64,000 bases of DNA from a virus. Where the stretch lies: positions 1 to 64,000 of IMG/VR virus record IMGVR_UViG_3300043446_003692, one strand, 5' to 3'. Shown one piece after another: positions 3,101 through 44,012 of the stretch; the first letter of the stretch is position 1; every line of letters starts with the position of its first letter. The notes beneath the pieces were generated by a model, which was not told the origin of the DNA, did not search any database, and saw only the letters and a list, made by a program, of their open reading frames with translations. The translations under genes and the position numbers were made by a program.

Positions 3101-3124
3101 GGGGAGCTTCGGCTCCCCTTTTTT
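3101..3124 (+). terminator. Rho-independent terminator after gp32
   Basis: GGGGAGC and GCTCCCC form a seven-pair stem closed by a TTCG tetraloop and followed by TTTTTT. It ends plus-strand transcription just before the convergent minus-strand tape-measure gene, whose stop codon is at 3123. On the minus strand there is no T-run after the stem, so it is one-directional. Confidence 0.95.
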
Positions 3125-5792
3125 ATGGTATGTTTATTTGGTCGCCGAAATAAGATCTCATTAAATCTGCTGGCGCTAGAGCTGGTCCGCTCTGAATAGT
3201 TCCAAGACCTTCATTAGCACCACTACCAGCAAAACCTTGTTGCATAGCGCTGGCTGGATTTGTTTCAGCCTGATACGATTTCATTCTAAATGCTTCTGTT
3301 TCCATCGCTGATATATTAAGTCTAGAAGCAGCTTCACCACTAGTTGTAGGATCTACCATAGGAACCAATGGACCTTTTGCTTTAGCAGCTAGAGCAGCAT
3401 CTATAGCAGCTTGAGAGCTTCCCTCTGTAAATCCACCTGCTCCAGTTTGAGAAGCAACTACTTCTGCATCTCTTCTTCTTTGTTCCGCATCAGCATTAGT
3501 TTTAGCAGCCCAAGCTCTAGCGTCAAAACCAGTCACACCACCCACAGCTTCAGCATCCATTGATGCTCGTTCAGCATCCATTTTTGCTTTTTGCTGCTCC
3601 GCCCACTTTAAAGAATCAGCATTTTCTGGTGCATTTAACCAACCTCTTTGTCTTTCCTCCGACCATTTTTTAGCATCAAACGCGCCAATCGTTTCAGGAT
3701 CTACGGCAGCTGCAGCAGCTGCCTCTTTATCAGCTACTCTCTGAGCGTTAAACTTACTAAGAATTTTGTCAGTCGCAGTCGCGTCTCTTTGAACTTCATC
3801 TGCAGTTGATATAATTCCACCAGCGCCCATTGCTGCGCTTGCTGCTGCAGCTTCTTCTTGCGCTCTGTATGCTGCATCCGAACTGCCGTAATCTGTTGGT
3901 GGTGGTAAATTAGGTCCGAATTGCCCCTGATTTAAAAATCTGCCTCGCATAGCAATTCTAGCTTGCGCTGCTGCTTCTTCAACTGGACCTTTTGGTTGGA
4001 AAGGACCGAATTGACCTTGGTTTAGAAAACGACCGCGAGTTGCAATTCCAGCTTGCGCTGCTGCAGCTTCGACTTCTGGACTATAACCACGTCTTACGCC
4101 TCCAGCGCCGCCTTCCCCAGCAGCCATAACACGACGACCCGCCATTCCTCCAGCGCCAAATAGAGCACTCATTTCAGTTCTAGAAAGACCACCACCGCTA
4201 GGTGTTGATGGCACAGCAGCGCCACCAGGAACTCCAGTAGCTGCTGTAATTGAACCACCCGCTCCAGCGCCTCCAGCGCCACTAGCTTTCGCTAGTTCTC
4301 TGGTCATTTGACCACCACCACCAATTCCATGCCATGTTGGTCTTAAAACGCTACTAATATAACCATGCATTTCAGGATTTTTCATATCCTCAGCGAGGTT
4401 TCTTCTAGTTTTTTGTCTATAAATTCTTTGAGCATGACTCCATGCAGCTCTATCCTGGTTTTCAGGAGTAAACTCGCGTGGGTCTATGCCCATAGCTTTT
4501 GCTTCTTTTTCCCATGTAGACCATAGAAACTGGTATCTTCCAGAAGCAGTATTACCGAAACGTCCTTCAAATGGATGCCTTGTACCCTGAAAATATGATG
4601 GTCGACCACCGCCACCTGGCGCCTTATAATTGATAATATCGTATCTACCACCACTTTCGCCAGAAGAGATTGTACTTAAAAGAGCTTGAGCTTCTGGCGG
4701 AAGATCTTTGGCGGCGAATGAACCACTACCGCCGCCAGAGGATCTACCACCGCCAGCGCCACCGCCCCCAGTTCCCGCTCCTGGAACGTATGAAGAACCA
4801 CCAGGTCCACCAGGAGCTGCACTAGGACCAGGTCCACCAGGAGCTGCACTAGGACCAGGTCCACCAGGAGCTGAACCACTTGAACCACCAAAACTTGCAC
4901 CTGCAGATGGTTGGCCACCAGCAGTTTCAAACTTGATACTGTCTGCTTTAAAAATAATTTCTCGAGAATTGAAATTGATAGATTGTTTTTCTACTTCAGC
5001 AGCTGCTTTTTGTTTTTGCTGTTGCTCCTTTACGGACAATTCAGCCATTGCATCTGTTTTGTTGCTTTTGTTGTCGCCAAAAATTGAATTGTATATAGCA
5101 GATCCCACATCGTATATAGCAGTCGCCGCCTTATCTCCCAAATAACCACCACCTACAAGACCAACTGCAGAACCCGCTGGACCAGCAACGCCACCTAAAA
5201 CACCACCAGCAAGTCTACCAATACCTGCTCCAATAGCGCCAGCTGCAGCTCTACCAGCTAAAGCTCCGCCTAACGTACCAGCACCAGAGGCTACTGCTCT
5301 ACCAGCGTTTCCGCTTTCCATATATTCAGAAACACCAGTCGCTGTTGCACCAATGGCTGGTATGGCTCTTCCGAACATTCTGGCAGCTGCAGAAATACCA
5401 GCTATAAGAGCAGCATTTTCTGCGACAGAACTTTTTGGAGTGTTAACCCCTTGCCCTTGTATTTTAGCTTCGATATTTTTAAGAGTTCTGTCGATGCTAT
5501 TAAGAGCGCCTCCCATATTATTAATACCAGCGCTGATATCTTTCAAGTCACCAGCTTGTTCATTGAAATCTGATTGAAGATCTCTGACAGCTCTTACAGT
5601 ATCTTTTCCGCTATCGCCAGTTTCACCACTTTGTCTACCAGTTTTTTTGGCTCCAGTTTTGGTGCTGCTGAAATTGTTTGCTATAGCGCCAGCGGCTGTT
5701 CCACCGACAGCCCCTTTCAAAAAATTCATGCCAGCTGTTTTAGCTATATCTAAGCCAATACCACCTACACCTGTTGCCAAATTTGCAATCAT
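3123..5792 (-). CDS. Tape-measure-like tail protein with lysozyme (lambda R/GH104-like) domain
   Basis: 889 residues. The N-terminal part has Gly/Ala-rich hydrophobic segments (about 165-235) and helical stretches typical of tail tape measures. A Gly/Pro/Ser linker (about 300-365) carries a 27-base tandem repeat. Residues about 370-495 look like a lambda R-type lytic transglycosylase: a Glu in SSGESGGRYD, then GRYQFLWSTW and FTPENQDRAAW. The C-terminal half is Ala-rich with two copies of a RGRFLNQGQFGP motif. In this cluster the position fits T4 gp29. An alternative is a separate tail lysin. It probably degrades peptidoglycan during DNA entry. Confidence 0.6.
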   Translation of the reverse strand: MIANLATGVGGIGLDIAKTAGMNFLKGAVGGTAAGAIANNFSSTKTGAKKTGRQSGETGDSGKDTVRAVRDLQSDFNEQAGDLKDISAGINNMGGALNSIDRTLKNIEAKIQGQGVNTPKSSVAENAALIAGISAAARMFGRAIPAIGATATGVSEYMESGNAGRAVASGAGTLGGALAGRAAAGAIGAGIGRLAGGVLGGVAGPAGSAVGLVGGGYLGDKAATAIYDVGSAIYNSIFGDNKSNKTDAMAELSVKEQQQKQKAAAEVEKQSINFNSREIIFKADSIKFETAGGQPSAGASFGGSSGSAPGGPGPSAAPGGPGPSAAPGGPGGSSYVPGAGTGGGGAGGGRSSGGGSGSFAAKDLPPEAQALLSTISSGESGGRYDIINYKAPGGGGRPSYFQGTRHPFEGRFGNTASGRYQFLWSTWEKEAKAMGIDPREFTPENQDRAAWSHAQRIYRQKTRRNLAEDMKNPEMHGYISSVLRPTWHGIGGGGQMTRELAKASGAGGAGAGGSITAATGVPGGAAVPSTPSGGGLSRTEMSALFGAGGMAGRRVMAAGEGGAGGVRRGYSPEVEAAAAQAGIATRGRFLNQGQFGPFQPKGPVEEAAAQARIAMRGRFLNQGQFGPNLPPPTDYGSSDAAYRAQEEAAAASAAMGAGGIISTADEVQRDATATDKILSKFNAQRVADKEAAAAAAVDPETIGAFDAKKWSEERQRGWLNAPENADSLKWAEQQKAKMDAERASMDAEAVGGVTGFDARAWAAKTNADAEQRRRDAEVVASQTGAGGFTEGSSQAAIDAALAAKAKGPLVPMVDPTTSGEAASRLNISAMETEAFRMKSYQAETNPASAMQQGFAGSGANEGLGTIQSGPALAPADLMRSYFGDQINIP
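4801..4874 (-). repeat. 27-base tandem repeat coding for PGPSAAPGG
   Basis: Two full copies (4801-4827 and 4828-4854) and 20 bases of a third are identical. They encode a nine-residue Pro/Gly/Ser linker unit immediately before the lysozyme domain. Copy number can change without loss of frame, which would alter linker length. Confidence 0.85.
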
Positions 5793-6277
5793 TACTGCTT
5801 ACCTGCGATTTTCTCTTGACCGCGAGTCCACGCAGCAACGCCAAGAATTGCGCCAAATGCCATATGAATCAATCCACCGTTATCCAGTGTGAGCGACTTC
5901 CATGGAATATACGCCATACCTTTTACGAACTGTGGCATAAACATTGAGATGATAGGAAACACAATGAAGTCACAAGCGCACATAGCCATGTAGAGCCAGC
6001 CCATGGCAGGACGCCACATAGACTTCATCCATGGCTCTTCTTGCTTTGCGTTCTGTGCTTCCCATTGCTTCTTCTCTAGCTCAATACGAGCTAGCTGCGC
6101 CGCTTCAGATTCTACTGGACGTGCTGATGACGCTGGTGAAGAATATGAATATGATGGCGCGCTAGCAGTATACGAAGCTGATGCAGCAACTACTGATGGT
6201 TTAGTAGGAGGTGGTAGCTCATCCATTGCTGGCTTGGCTACCGCTGGTTCATCGTCAGGTGATCCGAATTTAGGCAT
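5792..6277 (-). CDS. Holin-like membrane protein (three-TM holin superfamily)
   Basis: 161 residues. The N-terminal 80 are Pro/Ser/Ala-rich and likely unstructured, with a charged helix (ARIELEKKQWEAQ). The rest has WRPAMGWLYMAMCACDFIVFP, then IPWKSLTLDNGGLIHMAFGAILGVAAW. The W-RP-x6-Y...DF-x3-P pattern is typical of gene-transfer-agent/3TM holins. It would open the inner membrane for lysis, which fits the lysozyme-containing gene next door. The start overlaps the end of the gp51 frame, and the stop overlaps the next start by one base. Confidence 0.65.
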   Translation of the reverse strand: MPKFGSPDDEPAVAKPAMDELPPPTKPSVVAASASYTASAPSYSYSSPASSARPVESEAAQLARIELEKKQWEAQNAKQEEPWMKSMWRPAMGWLYMAMCACDFIVFPIISMFMPQFVKGMAYIPWKSLTLDNGGLIHMAFGAILGVAAWTRGQEKIAGKQ

Positions 6278-6449
6278 TTCTAGTTCTTTCCTCTAGTTTA
6301 TTGAGGTAATCCATTAAAAATGAAAAATACAAATCACGCTCGTAAGGCACCATATCCTCAATTTCTTTTATCGAATATTTATGGTGCTGAGCCAAGGAAA
6401 ATATAGAAGCATAATAATTTTCAAGAGTATTGTGACTCAGCGCAGCATA
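6270..6449 (-). CDS. 51: gp51-like extension reached by -1 frameshift from gp26
   Basis: A 59-residue frame with no start codon of its own follows a slippery T TTT TTT. It reads YAALSHNTLENYYASIFS, then LAQHHKYSIKEIEDM and VPYERDLYF. The ENYY...HHKYS...M-P-ERD-Y pattern is what I associate with gp51 (baseplate hub assembly catalyst) in T4-like phages. Joined to gp26 after Phe234 it gives a 293-residue protein. Its stop overlaps the holin-like start, so no space is lost. It is best explained as a fused tail-chaperone-like product. Confidence 0.7.
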   Translation of the reverse strand, partial: YAALSHNTLENYYASIFSLAQHHKYSIKEIEDMVPYERDLYFSFLMDYLNKLEERTRNA

Positions 6450-7150
6450 AAAAAATCGTTGAGAGAACTCAACTCTATTTTTCTATCATTACCAAATGAA
6501 TTTTTGTATGTAATTGTATGCTTTAATTTTGGAGCTGTTGCCAAAAATTCATTGATTTTTTCAAATGTCTTAATATCGATTTGATTGATGAAATCTAATA
6601 GTTCTTGGCGCGAAAAGTTTTTAGGTTCGTAAACCGATTCTTCGTCATAGATCTTATCTATGCAGCGAACAATCAATTCTATTGCTGCATCTTCTGGCGT
6701 AGCATTAAGGAATTCTTTATCAGAATAAATGCTGGCTGGAGGATACCTCATTACAATACCATTTTTACCTATGATGCTAATTTTATTAGAAACATCCTTC
6801 GGCATTTCCAAAACGATTTCGTCAAGATTAATTTCAAATTCGTATAGTTTTTCGTCTTCATAATCTTTGTACGAAAGTTTAATTACATTGCTTACTGACA
6901 AAGAACGAATTTTAAGGAACAAGTATTCCAGATCGAAAACAGAAATAGTATCTACGTCAAACGTAGGATCCATAGAACAATTGTTTACTACCTGTTTTAT
7001 GGCAGTTAAAATGTCATTATCTTCGTTGCTTGTTTTTGCTACAAGAAGTATTTTTTCTTCTCTGACTAGAAACTGCCTAAACTTCATCTTTTTGTTCAAT
7101 GAAGGCACAAGAATATCAAACTGCGGGTACATAATTTTAGGTAAAGACAT
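6437..7150 (-). CDS. 26: gp26-like baseplate hub protein (zero-frame product)
   Basis: 237 residues (T4 gp26: 208). Matches the T4 baseplate-hub protein family in layout: an N-terminal MYPQFDILVPS, then KFRQFLVREEK, a middle LKIRSLSV segment and a C-terminal helical DIKTFEKINEFL region. The gp26 family resembles tail-assembly chaperones in layout. The gene ends SLNDFFMLR directly after the slippery run, so most ribosomes would make this short form and some the gp26-gp51 fusion. It is preceded by the gp54-like gene. Confidence 0.8.
   Translation of the reverse strand: MSLPKIMYPQFDILVPSLNKKMKFRQFLVREEKILLVAKTSNEDNDILTAIKQVVNNCSMDPTFDVDTISVFDLEYLFLKIRSLSVSNVIKLSYKDYEDEKLYEFEINLDEIVLEMPKDVSNKISIIGKNGIVMRYPPASIYSDKEFLNATPEDAAIELIVRCIDKIYDEESVYEPKNFSRQELLDFINQIDIKTFEKINEFLATAPKLKHTITYKNSFGNDRKIELSSLNDFFMLR
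6449..6455 (-). promoter_or_regulatory. Slippery heptamer T_TTT_TTT for -1 ribosomal frameshifting
   Basis: On the minus strand the gp26 frame reads GAT TTT TTT ATG CTG CGC TGA. The seven Ts fit X_XXY_YYZ in phase, nine bases before the gp26 stop. Slipping back one base gives TAT GCT GCG and continues for 59 codons into gp51. No stable downstream stem was identified by eye. Confidence 0.75.
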
Positions 7151-7170: not shown

Positions 7171-7845
7171 TTATCCACCGAAAAGCGATTGGTCTCCTCG
7201 AAATACTGCAGTTTCAATTGCAGCAGATCTATCGCCAACAGATCTAAACGTCTGAGCGCCACCGACTCCAACGTTACGTTCATTCCAAGAGAAAAAGTTA
7301 AATCTAACATTCAAACGCATAAAGTCGCTACTGCCCCAGTTTAAACTGATGTCAGATATGGAAACTGGGAATGCGTCAACCAAATCGATAATCATTGTTG
7401 GGTAATCTGGTCTAATTTCATTGTAAACGAAAATGGTCAAAGTTGATGCGTATTCATCTTTATAAGCTAACTCAAACTCTGTTCCTCGACCCAAATTATA
7501 ATTGTATATTGTGTCCATCCAAGCCTGAAACATATTCCACATTTGAGCTTTTTGATCAATGCGAAATGTGACATTACAATCAGTAAACGCTGCACCAAAT
7601 GGCATCTTTTCGATGTTACCAACACCTTGGCGGCGCAATTCAGAAGTCTGTAGGCTGATACCTGGAACAGATACGCTTTCTGCATAGTACTCTAGGATGC
7701 GACCAGTTTGAGCTGTGTTAACGCCACCTACTGATCTGCCAGTTAAAATATTTGGTATAGGTACGCGTACGACAAATCGATTATTTTTCAATAATCCGCC
7801 ATTACGCGATAAATTTGATGTAAACTGATCGATACTAAAAGGCAT
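7171..7845 (-). CDS. 54: gp54-like baseplate-tail tube initiator (tube-fold protein)
   Basis: 224 residues. The layout is that of a gp19-type tube fold: KNNRFVVRVP near the start, ESVSVPGISL, MPFGAAFTDCNVTFR, WMDTIYNY and a final strand FMRLNVRFNFFSW. gp54 and gp48 are the tube-like proteins that join the hub to the tube in T4. gp48 is identified separately at 8941, so this is the gp54 candidate. The gene is shorter than T4 gp54 (320). It shares one base with the upstream gene's stop. Confidence 0.6.
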   Translation of the reverse strand: MPFSIDQFTSNLSRNGGLLKNNRFVVRVPIPNILTGRSVGGVNTAQTGRILEYYAESVSVPGISLQTSELRRQGVGNIEKMPFGAAFTDCNVTFRIDQKAQMWNMFQAWMDTIYNYNLGRGTEFELAYKDEYASTLTIFVYNEIRPDYPTMIIDLVDAFPVSISDISLNWGSSDFMRLNVRFNFFSWNERNVGVGGAQTFRSVGDRSAAIETAVFRGDQSLFGG

Positions 7846-39254: not shown

Positions 39255-40433
39255 ATGCCATCTGGGTTTAAATACGGTGAAGATGAATTTGATCGTGTTT
39301 TTATGACCGACTACGAAATTGTAGATCGATTCGTAGGGAATAGATTATGGACATGGGGTGTCAATGGAGAAGGTAACTTAGGCGAAAATACATCAACTAA
39401 TAGATCATCACCAGGAACAACTGCTGGTGGTGGTGTTAACTGGGTTCAAGTTTCAGCAGGTGGCACAACGGGAAATAGATATTCAGCCGCGATAAAAACC
39501 GATGGTACATTATGGACTTGGGGAGGAAATGTTGCTGGTAAATTGGGTGATGGAACAACAACTTCACGTTCATCGCCTGGAACAACTGCTGGTGGCGGCA
39601 CTAACTGGAAACAAGTTGCTTGTGGTGACACTAATATGGCTGCTGTAAAAACAGACGGTACTTTATGGACTTGGGGCGCAGCAACTTCTGGTGGCTTAGG
39701 CGACGGAACAACAACTTCTAGATCTTCTCCAGGCACAACTGCTGGCGGTGGCACTAACTGGAAACAAGTTGCGGCTGGATCAAATCTTATGGGCGCAATT
39801 AAAACTGATGGCACACTTTGGACTTGGGGTTCTGGTGCAAATGGAGGTTTGGGTGATGGAACAACAACTGCCAGATCTTCTCCTGGCACAACAGCTGGTG
39901 GTGGAACTACCTGGAAACAAGTAGCTGCTACAGTTGGGCGTATGGTAGCGGTTAAAACAGATGGTACGTTGTGGACATGGGGAAGAAACACAAGAGGACA
40001 ATTGGGTGACGGTTCATCAACTTCTCGTTCTTCTCCTGGCACAACTGCAGGTGGCGGAACAACTTGGAAATCTGTTGATACAGCTGATGGCACAAACGAC
40101 GGACACACTGCAGCCATTAAAACTGATGGAACATTATGGACTTGGGGGGAAAATACTGCTGGCGCATTGGGCGACGGTTCAACAACCTCTCGATCTTCTC
40201 CAGGCACAACTGCAGGTGCAGGTTCTAATTGGAAAATGGTTTCTTGTGGTTATCGCAATACAGCCGCTGTAAAAACCGACGGCACATTATGGACTTGGGG
40301 GTCTGCAATTAATGGTCAATTGGGTGACGGAACCACAACTTCTCGTTCTTCTCCAGGAACAACGGTTTCAAACTCAAATCAATGGAAAACAGTAAAATCA
40401 GCAAACTTCTATATGCTTGCTATAGCAGATTAA
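39255..40433 (+). CDS. RCC1-like seven-repeat propeller protein, copy 1
   Basis: 392 residues. After a 30-residue N-terminus (ending DRFVGN) it has exactly seven repeats of about 51 residues with a consensus TLWTWGxNxxGxLGDG, RSSPGTTAGGGTNWKQV and AAIKTDG. LWTWG-x-N-x2-G-x-LG is the RCC1/ATS1 blade core. Seven repeats suggest one complete beta-propeller. Propellers bind proteins or glycans, so a receptor-binding tip is likely. Related genes lie at 41080 and 42813. Confidence 0.85.
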   Translation: MPSGFKYGEDEFDRVFMTDYEIVDRFVGNRLWTWGVNGEGNLGENTSTNRSSPGTTAGGGVNWVQVSAGGTTGNRYSAAIKTDGTLWTWGGNVAGKLGDGTTTSRSSPGTTAGGGTNWKQVACGDTNMAAVKTDGTLWTWGAATSGGLGDGTTTSRSSPGTTAGGGTNWKQVAAGSNLMGAIKTDGTLWTWGSGANGGLGDGTTTARSSPGTTAGGGTTWKQVAATVGRMVAVKTDGTLWTWGRNTRGQLGDGSSTSRSSPGTTAGGGTTWKSVDTADGTNDGHTAAIKTDGTLWTWGENTAGALGDGSTTSRSSPGTTAGAGSNWKMVSCGYRNTAAVKTDGTLWTWGSAINGQLGDGTTTSRSSPGTTVSNSNQWKTVKSANFYMLAIAD

Positions 40434-42321: not shown

Positions 42322-42816
42322 ATGGCATTCATTAAAACATTGACGATTGATGATTTTTATACTCCTGAAGGCGCAACTAATCTTTCGCTAGTTGCCAGAG
42401 GATTGCCATTTGTACAGAAAGATTTAGGTAGAGAAATCGAAAACTTCAATCACGTTCCTGATGACATCTCCGAAATCATTTCTAATACAATTGCCCGTAA
42501 AGTTGAAGTTGATATGGATCGTTCTGGTGTATTCCGTTTTCCAGAAGTATTTGTACACTTTGAAGACTTTGAGTCGACCAAAGATTGGATTCTCGTTGTT
42601 GCGTTAGATCATACATATTTTAATATCTATGAACATAAAGATGGTGCAAGAAATGCTCTTGAGGGATATGAGTTCCCATATCGAGATTTGTTTCAGTGGA
42701 ATGTGAGAGTAAATTACGAATTAGAGCCAGGACAAGCAGTGTTTTTTCGCCCATGGCTTTTTCATTCGTTCACAGGAAACCTAGTTCAGATCTTTAGATT
42801 AAGAGACGTAGAATGA
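42322..42816 (+). CDS. Double-stranded beta-helix protein, possible oxygenase-like
   Basis: 164 residues. The pattern of strands with a charged GQAVFFRPWLFHSFTGNLVQIF end (F-x-R-P-x3-H near 143-148) resembles the last strands of cupin/2OG-oxygenase folds. A first H-x-D motif is uncertain (DHTYFNIYEH at 96-105 is a candidate), so activity is unproven. It lies between propeller copies 2 and 3, starting right at the stop of copy 2 and overlapping copy 3 by four bases. A modifier or partner of the propellers is possible. Confidence 0.45.
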   Translation: MAFIKTLTIDDFYTPEGATNLSLVARGLPFVQKDLGREIENFNHVPDDISEIISNTIARKVEVDMDRSGVFRFPEVFVHFEDFESTKDWILVVALDHTYFNIYEHKDGARNALEGYEFPYRDLFQWNVRVNYELEPGQAVFFRPWLFHSFTGNLVQIFRLRDVE

Positions 42817-44012
42817 CCGTAGGATTTACCACTGTTTATAACGGAAGAACTATTGAAGTTGATGATCTCTTGATGAAAAGAGAGTATTTCAATGATGGTA
42901 CACTTTACACATGGGGTTCCGCAGCTTATGGAGCTATGGGTGATGGAACTATAACATCAAGAAGTTCGCCAGGTACAACTGCAGGCGCTGGGTTAAATTG
43001 GAAATCTGTTTCAAATGGATTTGGAACAACGGTTGGTGTTAAAACTGATGGAACTTTGTGGACTTGGGGACATAATTTAAGAGGTCAGTTAGGGAACAGC
43101 AGCACTACTTCCCGTTCTTCTCCAGGGACCACTACAGGTGGTGGAACTAACTGGATGCAAGTTTCATGTGGTTATCAATCTGTAGGTGCCATTAAATCAG
43201 ATGGAACATTATGGACTTGGGGAAATAATTTATCGGGTCAATTGGGAGACGGAAGCACAACTTCTCGATCTTCCCCAGCACAAGTTGCTGGTGGTGGAGC
43301 CAACTGGAAACAAGTTACTAGTGGTCTTGTACAAATGGCTGCAATTAAAACAGACGGCACATTATGGACATGGGGTTCTGGAGCCAATGGTGGATTAGGA
43401 AATAGTGGTACAGCATCAAGATCATCACCTGGCACAACCTCTGGTGGTGGAACAAATTGGAAGCAAGTTTCTGCGGGAAATGCATATTATATGGGCGCTG
43501 TCAAAACAGACGGCACACTTTGGACTTGGGGGCTAAACGATTTCGGTCAGTTAGGCGCTGGTAATACAACAAATAGGTCTTCTCCAGGAACAGTTGCTGG
43601 TGGGGGCACTAATTGGAAACAAATTTCACTTGGTTATTATTCATGGTCTGCAATAAAAACAGATGGCACTCTTTGGACTTGCGGTTATAATAGTTTCGGT
43701 CAATTGGGTAATGGTGCATCGGGAGCAGCAGCACATCGTTCTTCCCCAGGAACAGTTGCTGGCGGGGGCACTAATTGGAAAGAGACTTCATCTAATTTAG
43801 CTTGTACTTTAGCAATTAAAACAGATGGCACATTATGGACTTGGGGCTATAATCTGTATGGATTTTTAGGTACTGGTAATACAACTTCTAGATCATCTCC
43901 AGGAACAGTCGTTGGTGGCATTACTAATTGGAAAAGCACTATTCAATCAACAGGCGGATTTACTGCTGAATATAATAATACAATAGGAGCTATTACTGAT
44001 CTGACTATATAA
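42813..44012 (+). CDS. RCC1-like seven-repeat propeller protein, copy 3
   Basis: 399 residues. A 29-residue N-terminus (DDLLMKREYFNDG) precedes seven repeats (TLYTWG once, TLWTWG five times, TLWTCG once) with RSSPGT linkers. All three propeller proteins share an acidic start and a final D/K/R-E-Y or related segment just before blade 1, perhaps the attachment signal to the tail. The start overlaps the preceding gene. A 26-base gap separates it from the sulfotransferase gene. Confidence 0.85.
   Translation: MTVGFTTVYNGRTIEVDDLLMKREYFNDGTLYTWGSAAYGAMGDGTITSRSSPGTTAGAGLNWKSVSNGFGTTVGVKTDGTLWTWGHNLRGQLGNSSTTSRSSPGTTTGGGTNWMQVSCGYQSVGAIKSDGTLWTWGNNLSGQLGDGSTTSRSSPAQVAGGGANWKQVTSGLVQMAAIKTDGTLWTWGSGANGGLGNSGTASRSSPGTTSGGGTNWKQVSAGNAYYMGAVKTDGTLWTWGLNDFGQLGAGNTTNRSSPGTVAGGGTNWKQISLGYYSWSAIKTDGTLWTCGYNSFGQLGNGASGAAAHRSSPGTVAGGGTNWKETSSNLACTLAIKTDGTLWTWGYNLYGFLGTGNTTSRSSPGTVVGGITNWKSTIQSTGGFTAEYNNTIGAITDLTI

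Follow-up and report, generated by a model that had tools for sequence, protein, structure and literature searches.

How would a phage express a protein domain whose reading frame offers no start codon able to yield it whole? The question arises at the 3' end of a gp26-like gene in the window, the 64,000-nucleotide stretch of an uncultured, T4-like virus record (IMG/VR IMGVR_UViG_3300043446_003692) that we analysed, where a gp51 domain lies in the −1 frame behind a phased run of T's. We consider it very likely that −1 programmed frameshifting at gp26/gp51 makes a short and a long tail assembly chaperone from this locus, and probably from its counterparts in most related phages.

Results

A gp51 domain is encoded in the −1 frame at the end of gp26

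The gp26-like gene (6437–7150, minus strand) encodes 237 residues that match PF12322, the family of T4 gp26 and gp51 (E = 4.6e-52; 177.3 bits against a curated cut-off of 24.5), and phrog_150 in a PHROG profile search. From these matches and the AF2 model described below, the product is predicted to be the short tail assembly chaperone (TAC-N). Read on the minus strand, the gene ends CTC AAC GAT TTT TTT ATG CTG CGC TGA. The heptamer T_TTT_TTT (6449–6455) has the X_XXY_YYZ phase with gp26 that tandem −1 slippage requires; three gp26 codons follow it, and the TGA stop (6437–6439) lies nine bases past it.

The −1 frame is open from 6482 to 6270 (70 codons), and 59 of these codons, with the stop, make up the extension after the slip (6270–6449, minus strand). 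Its residues, YAALSHNTLENYY...RNA, match phrog_634 (‘baseplate hub assembly catalyst’, E = 7.4e-21), and gp26 joined to this extension gives a fusion of 293 residues, Met included, the predicted long chaperone (TAC-NC). The first-pass annotation had described a gp26 gene ending nine bases past a phased T_TTT_TTT, followed by 59 codons of −1 frame with a gp51 block and a 293-residue fused product; its coordinates and lengths were correct. Its claim that the extension has no start codon held in part: ATG, GTG and TTG are absent from the upstream −1-frame stop to extension residue 18, but a TTG occurs at 6395, and ATG and GTG codons lie within the conserved gp51 core. None of these would yield a complete gp51 domain.

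The heptamer and the −1 frame recur in related phages

From two IMG/VR scans and a set of named phages we collected 129 loci; with the window counted, these comprise 106 distinct junctions. Every one of the 106 places gp51 in a −1 frame that stays open from the heptamer onwards, and carries T_TTT_TTT or T_TTT_TTC in phase close to the gp26 stop: at the stop, shortly ahead of it or, in two cases, about ten codons ahead. The first-pass annotation had pointed to related phages as the place to look for the heptamer ahead of gp51, and there it was found. Because heptamer, phase and frame recur at every distinct junction and the extension matches phrog_634, the arrangement is not a product of chance.

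The same two-frame arrangement was present in cultured phages, for example S-ShM2, S-PM2, Cr30, phiM19 and DLP6, with further agreement from the KVP40-type Vibrio phage K571, Aeromonas phage ZPAH1, Agrobacterium phage OLIVR5, Methylophilales phage Melnitz and Desulfovibrio phage 7757. Rhizobium phage I1_9 has the heptamer variant T_TTT_TTG. Vibrio phage SUMAE keeps a gp51-like −1 frame with a degenerate slippery site, CTTTTC (CAACTTTTC).

Codon choice at the heptamer was compared among 62 representatives below 60% identity. The first Phe codon was TTT in all 62 (66% expected from each gene's own codon usage, log10P −12.8), and the codon before Phe-Phe, specifying D, S, N or A, likewise ended in T in 62/62 (72% expected, log10P −11); the representatives were treated as independent, and shared ancestry weakens both log10P values. 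By this comparison, the encoded residues and codon usage together do not account for how strongly the T-run is conserved.

These counts bear on the alternative that gp51 is a separate protein, translated by reinitiation past the gp26 stop or from an internal start, with Phe-Phe kept for protein reasons only. Many relatives, cyanophages among them, have an ATG just past the gp26 stop, either overlapping it (TGATG or TAATG) or within 5–8 nt, and most public records annotate gp51 as its own gene. However, where a complete gp51 could start, 72 of the 106 distinct junctions lack ATG and 51 lack ATG, GTG and TTG altogether. The TTG at 6395 in the window lies at the 3' arm of the RNA stem described below, has no evident Shine-Dalgarno motif, and as a start would drop the N-terminal part of the domain. 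The T4 genes described next add to the case against a separate gp51.

T4 encodes the two forms in two genes

T4 gp26 and gp51 both match PF12322 over its whole length (8.8e-64 and 3.9e-52), and T4 gp51 has the phrog_634 domain at its C-terminus, so that it joins both domains naturally in one chain. The two genes lie on opposite strands. Judged by these profile matches, T4 gp51 is the unsplit counterpart of the predicted frameshift product and T4 gp26 is the short paralogue. The first-pass annotation rightly had gp26 and gp51 as separate genes in T4, but T4 gp51 is more than the extension: it consists of a full-length paralogue of gp26 to which the extension is joined; T4 would therefore encode short and long forms by two genes. 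T4 gp51 is needed for assembly but does not form part of the virion (PMC3004832).

T4, JS10 and most other Tevenvirinae examined have a gp26 that ends in Phe-Phe, coded TTCTTT, with the T-run absent at the gene end. The Tevenvirinae are thus a natural control, in which Phe-Phe is mostly kept and the T-run is lost where gp51 is a full-length paralogue. A T-run kept beyond codon usage elsewhere and gone here, though most Tevenvirinae retain Phe-Phe, argues against a separate gp51, as does the natural fusion in T4, and we regard that alternative as improbable beside −1 frameshifting. In a tree, the T4 gp26 and gp51 groups formed separate clades on long branches, so that the duplication is not datable from it.

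A conserved RNA stem follows the heptamer

In the window's clade, GCTGAGTCA (6433–6441, minus strand), which begins 7 nt after the heptamer and contains the gp26 stop, pairs with TGGCTCAGC (6386–6394, minus strand) across a loop of 38 nt. Taken by itself, the window stem had z = −1.6 against dinucleotide shuffles. Across relatives, the 70 nt past the heptamer had a mean z of −2.4 against such shuffles, compared with −0.36 for control windows and −0.04 upstream. A synonymous-codon null, with variants preserving the gp51 protein and codon usage, gave a mean z of −3.1 (p ≤ 0.05 in 43 of 62), and means of −0.2 to −0.4 for four control windows. The helix started 6–8 nt past the heptamer in 29 of 55 sequences (mode 7).

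The pairing was assessed by explicit pair counts together with the synonymous-codon null. In an alignment covering 51 of the 55 sequences of this class (the other four, L078, L082, L085 and L091, do not form the stem), 91% of stem pair cells were standard, compared with 18–37% when the register was slid. There were 16 double changes, against 0 of 500 shuffles, confined to two of the nine pairs. RNAalifold predicted no consensus pairs from the 51-sequence alignment, and an Rfam search returned no match. A structure conserved at a spacing of 7 nt (z −3.1), within the 5–9 nt range used for frameshift sites, is consistent with a putative role in stimulation despite the negative RNAalifold result; from its position and conservation, the stem probably stimulates slippage.

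Where this register is broken, several sequences instead pair as another stem, often a longer one, at the same place. In L010, L033, L040 and similar loci the register has switched (for example, to TTGCGCTAAAC/GTTTAGCGCAA) with the position after the heptamer unchanged. An inverted repeat upstream of the heptamer in the window, GTTGAG TTCT CTCAAC, was dropped as a candidate element, upstream structure being unenriched in relatives (mean z −0.04).

Structure was weaker in the T_TTT_TTC clade (mean z −1.9; p ≤ 0.05 in 9 of 21). Members of this clade often have GGAGGG about 10 nt upstream of the heptamer, and in several of them the motif is stronger than in synonymous variants; this GGAGG-like element is a candidate stimulator of slippage. 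GGAGGG-like Shine-Dalgarno motifs were seen, for example, in L047, L112, L117 and L129, and were absent from the window's own clade.

Position and spacing also help to separate ribosomal from transcriptional slippage, in which RNA polymerase would produce mixed mRNAs on the T-run and a one-base insertion or two-base deletion would join the frames. RNA polymerase is known to slip on homopolymer runs (PMC5009743), and the run is seven T's long in the window and eight in some relatives. However, the run in 21 of the 62 representatives is six T's and then C; in 62/62 the additional T lies 5', where tandem tRNA slippage needs it, whereas of the 41 with TTTTTTT only 5 have another T on its 3' side. 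The stem spacing of 6–8 nt also suits the ribosome, and transcriptional slippage appears less probable still than a separate gp51. That a homopolymer error in sequencing or assembly has split one truly fused open reading frame has a negligible chance of being right: homopolymers are error-prone and the window comes from an uncultured virus, but independent genomes contradict it, with the two-frame layout shared by 106 distinct junctions and by cultured phages. We retain −1 ribosomal frameshifting as by far the likeliest reading of this junction.

Fold and gene neighbourhood fit a tail assembly chaperone

The AF2 model of gp26 (pLDDT 88.8) matched, over about residues 1–88, 3fgx (Z 8.1), 2ob9 (Z 7.8) and 3klu (YqbN; Z 6.9), ranked first to third with the next structure at Z 3.8; Foldseek E-values for these hits were poor, and the tool itself rates a Z near 8 as borderline. 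The HK97 tail assembly chaperone is 2ob9, matched by gp26 residues 1–86, and we take 3fgx and 3klu to be tail-chaperone-type proteins. With absolute Z borderline, the model is supportive of a chaperone-like fold in the N-terminal domain of gp26. When a T4-like gp51 model was the query, tail chaperones were not among the chains passed on by Foldseek, and a PDB sequence search gave only marginal matches, to unrelated enzymes.

The gene order in the window is tail tube, gp26, gp51, a small gene and a likely tape measure or tail lysin, all on the minus strand, and it is similar in the relatives Cr30, K571 and phiM19. The tail tube protein (gp19-like; 7171–7845) matched strongly (phrog_45, E = 2.8e-37; PF23849, E = 4e-13). 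The small gene (5792–6277), which overlaps the gp51 end, matched GTA_holin_3TM (PF11351, E = 2.3e-6). The 889-residue gene after it (3123–5792) is placed by its position and by weak matches to phrog_794 (tape measure, E = 3e-5) and phrog_1047 (tail lysin, E = 3e-6). Several relatives also have a small gene between gp51 and a large tape-measure-like gene. Gene V of lambda precedes G, and the order around G/GT is similar. The first-pass annotation had proposed a −1 frameshift and had likened gp26/gp51 to the gpG/gpGT tail chaperones; the comparative, structural and synteny evidence supports both proposals.

Elsewhere in the window, two proteins matched RCC1-like PHROG families (‘regulator of chromosome condensation’; 39255–40433 and 42813–44012, plus strand).

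Discussion

On the mechanism that we propose, most ribosomes would stop at the end of gp26 and release the short chaperone, TAC-N. A minority, with tRNA-Phe in the P and A sites on T_TTT_TTT, would slip back one base and read on in the gp51 frame to give the 293-residue TAC-NC. It counts against this mechanism that in E. coli, which may not be the host, U_UUU_UUU slips only modestly beside A_AAA_AAG (PMC5009743). The stem-loop, its 5' arm 7 nt downstream of the heptamer, would probably pause the ribosome and stimulate the slip, and in another clade the GGAGG-like Shine-Dalgarno element about 10 nt upstream may do so. By analogy with gpG/gpGT of lambda, the tape measure protein would be covered by many copies of the short form and few of the long one, whose gp51 domain would bring in tail tube subunits.

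The slippery heptamer of lambda is G_GGA_AAG, and G/GT frameshifting is classical. The E. coli dnaX element combines an A_AAA_AAG heptamer with a downstream stem-loop and an upstream Shine-Dalgarno-like stimulator; the locus described here likewise has a heptamer and a stem-loop, and the cyanophage clade shares the Shine-Dalgarno-like element about 10 nt upstream, whereas gene and heptamer differ. The system to which we liken gp26/gp51, the −1 frameshift of lambda gpG/gpGT, is conserved across long-tailed phages (PMC5009743); here, in contrast, the heptamer is of the T type, a conserved stem lies downstream, and gp26 has a large domain past its chaperone-like N-terminus. The tail assembly chaperone of Pseudomonas phage Adele (Vandenendeviridae/Andersonviridae), also a myovirus studied by comparative genomics, likewise has a T-rich −1 site, but it belongs to a different family and its motif is GTTTTT (PMC12846349).

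T4-like tail chaperone genes were identified by Vladimirov, Gautam and Davidson in 2022, according to papers that cite them (PMC10885494, PMC12846349). As cited there, in some T4-like phages two genes take the place of a frameshift (PMC10885494), and poly-T slippery sites are present in T4-like TAC-N genes (PMC12846349). With the family so identified and the frameshift of a classical kind, mechanism and family are already known; what may be new in detail is the conserved stem and how widely the arrangement is conserved. T4 itself shares with these phages the PF12322 family and the gp51 C-terminal domain, but has two divergently oriented paralogous genes for the short and long forms and no slippery run at the gp26 end.

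We lean towards frameshifting being ancestral in the T4-like group outside the Tevenvirinae, with a register-switching stem in one large clade and a Shine-Dalgarno-like element in another, and with frameshifting lost in T4 by duplication. If so, the two-gene system of T4 would be the exception. The T4 hub proteins gp26 and gp51, long a puzzle, find a probable place in the tail assembly chaperone system, and for most of their relatives a probable way of making both forms can now be stated. The heptamer, 7-nt spacer and stem define a compact RNA element that is directly testable.

Among the frameshift-type phages whose public annotation we examined, the frameshift was unmarked, and gp51 was separate, truncated or missing. 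Where these records list ‘gp51’ as its own gene, they probably show the 3' half of a gene that is frameshifted. In Aeromonas phage ZPAH1 (L143) gp51 is missing from the annotation, and in OLIVR5 (L146) and Melnitz (L147) it is truncated by an internal start, apparently because the frameshift went unrecognised.
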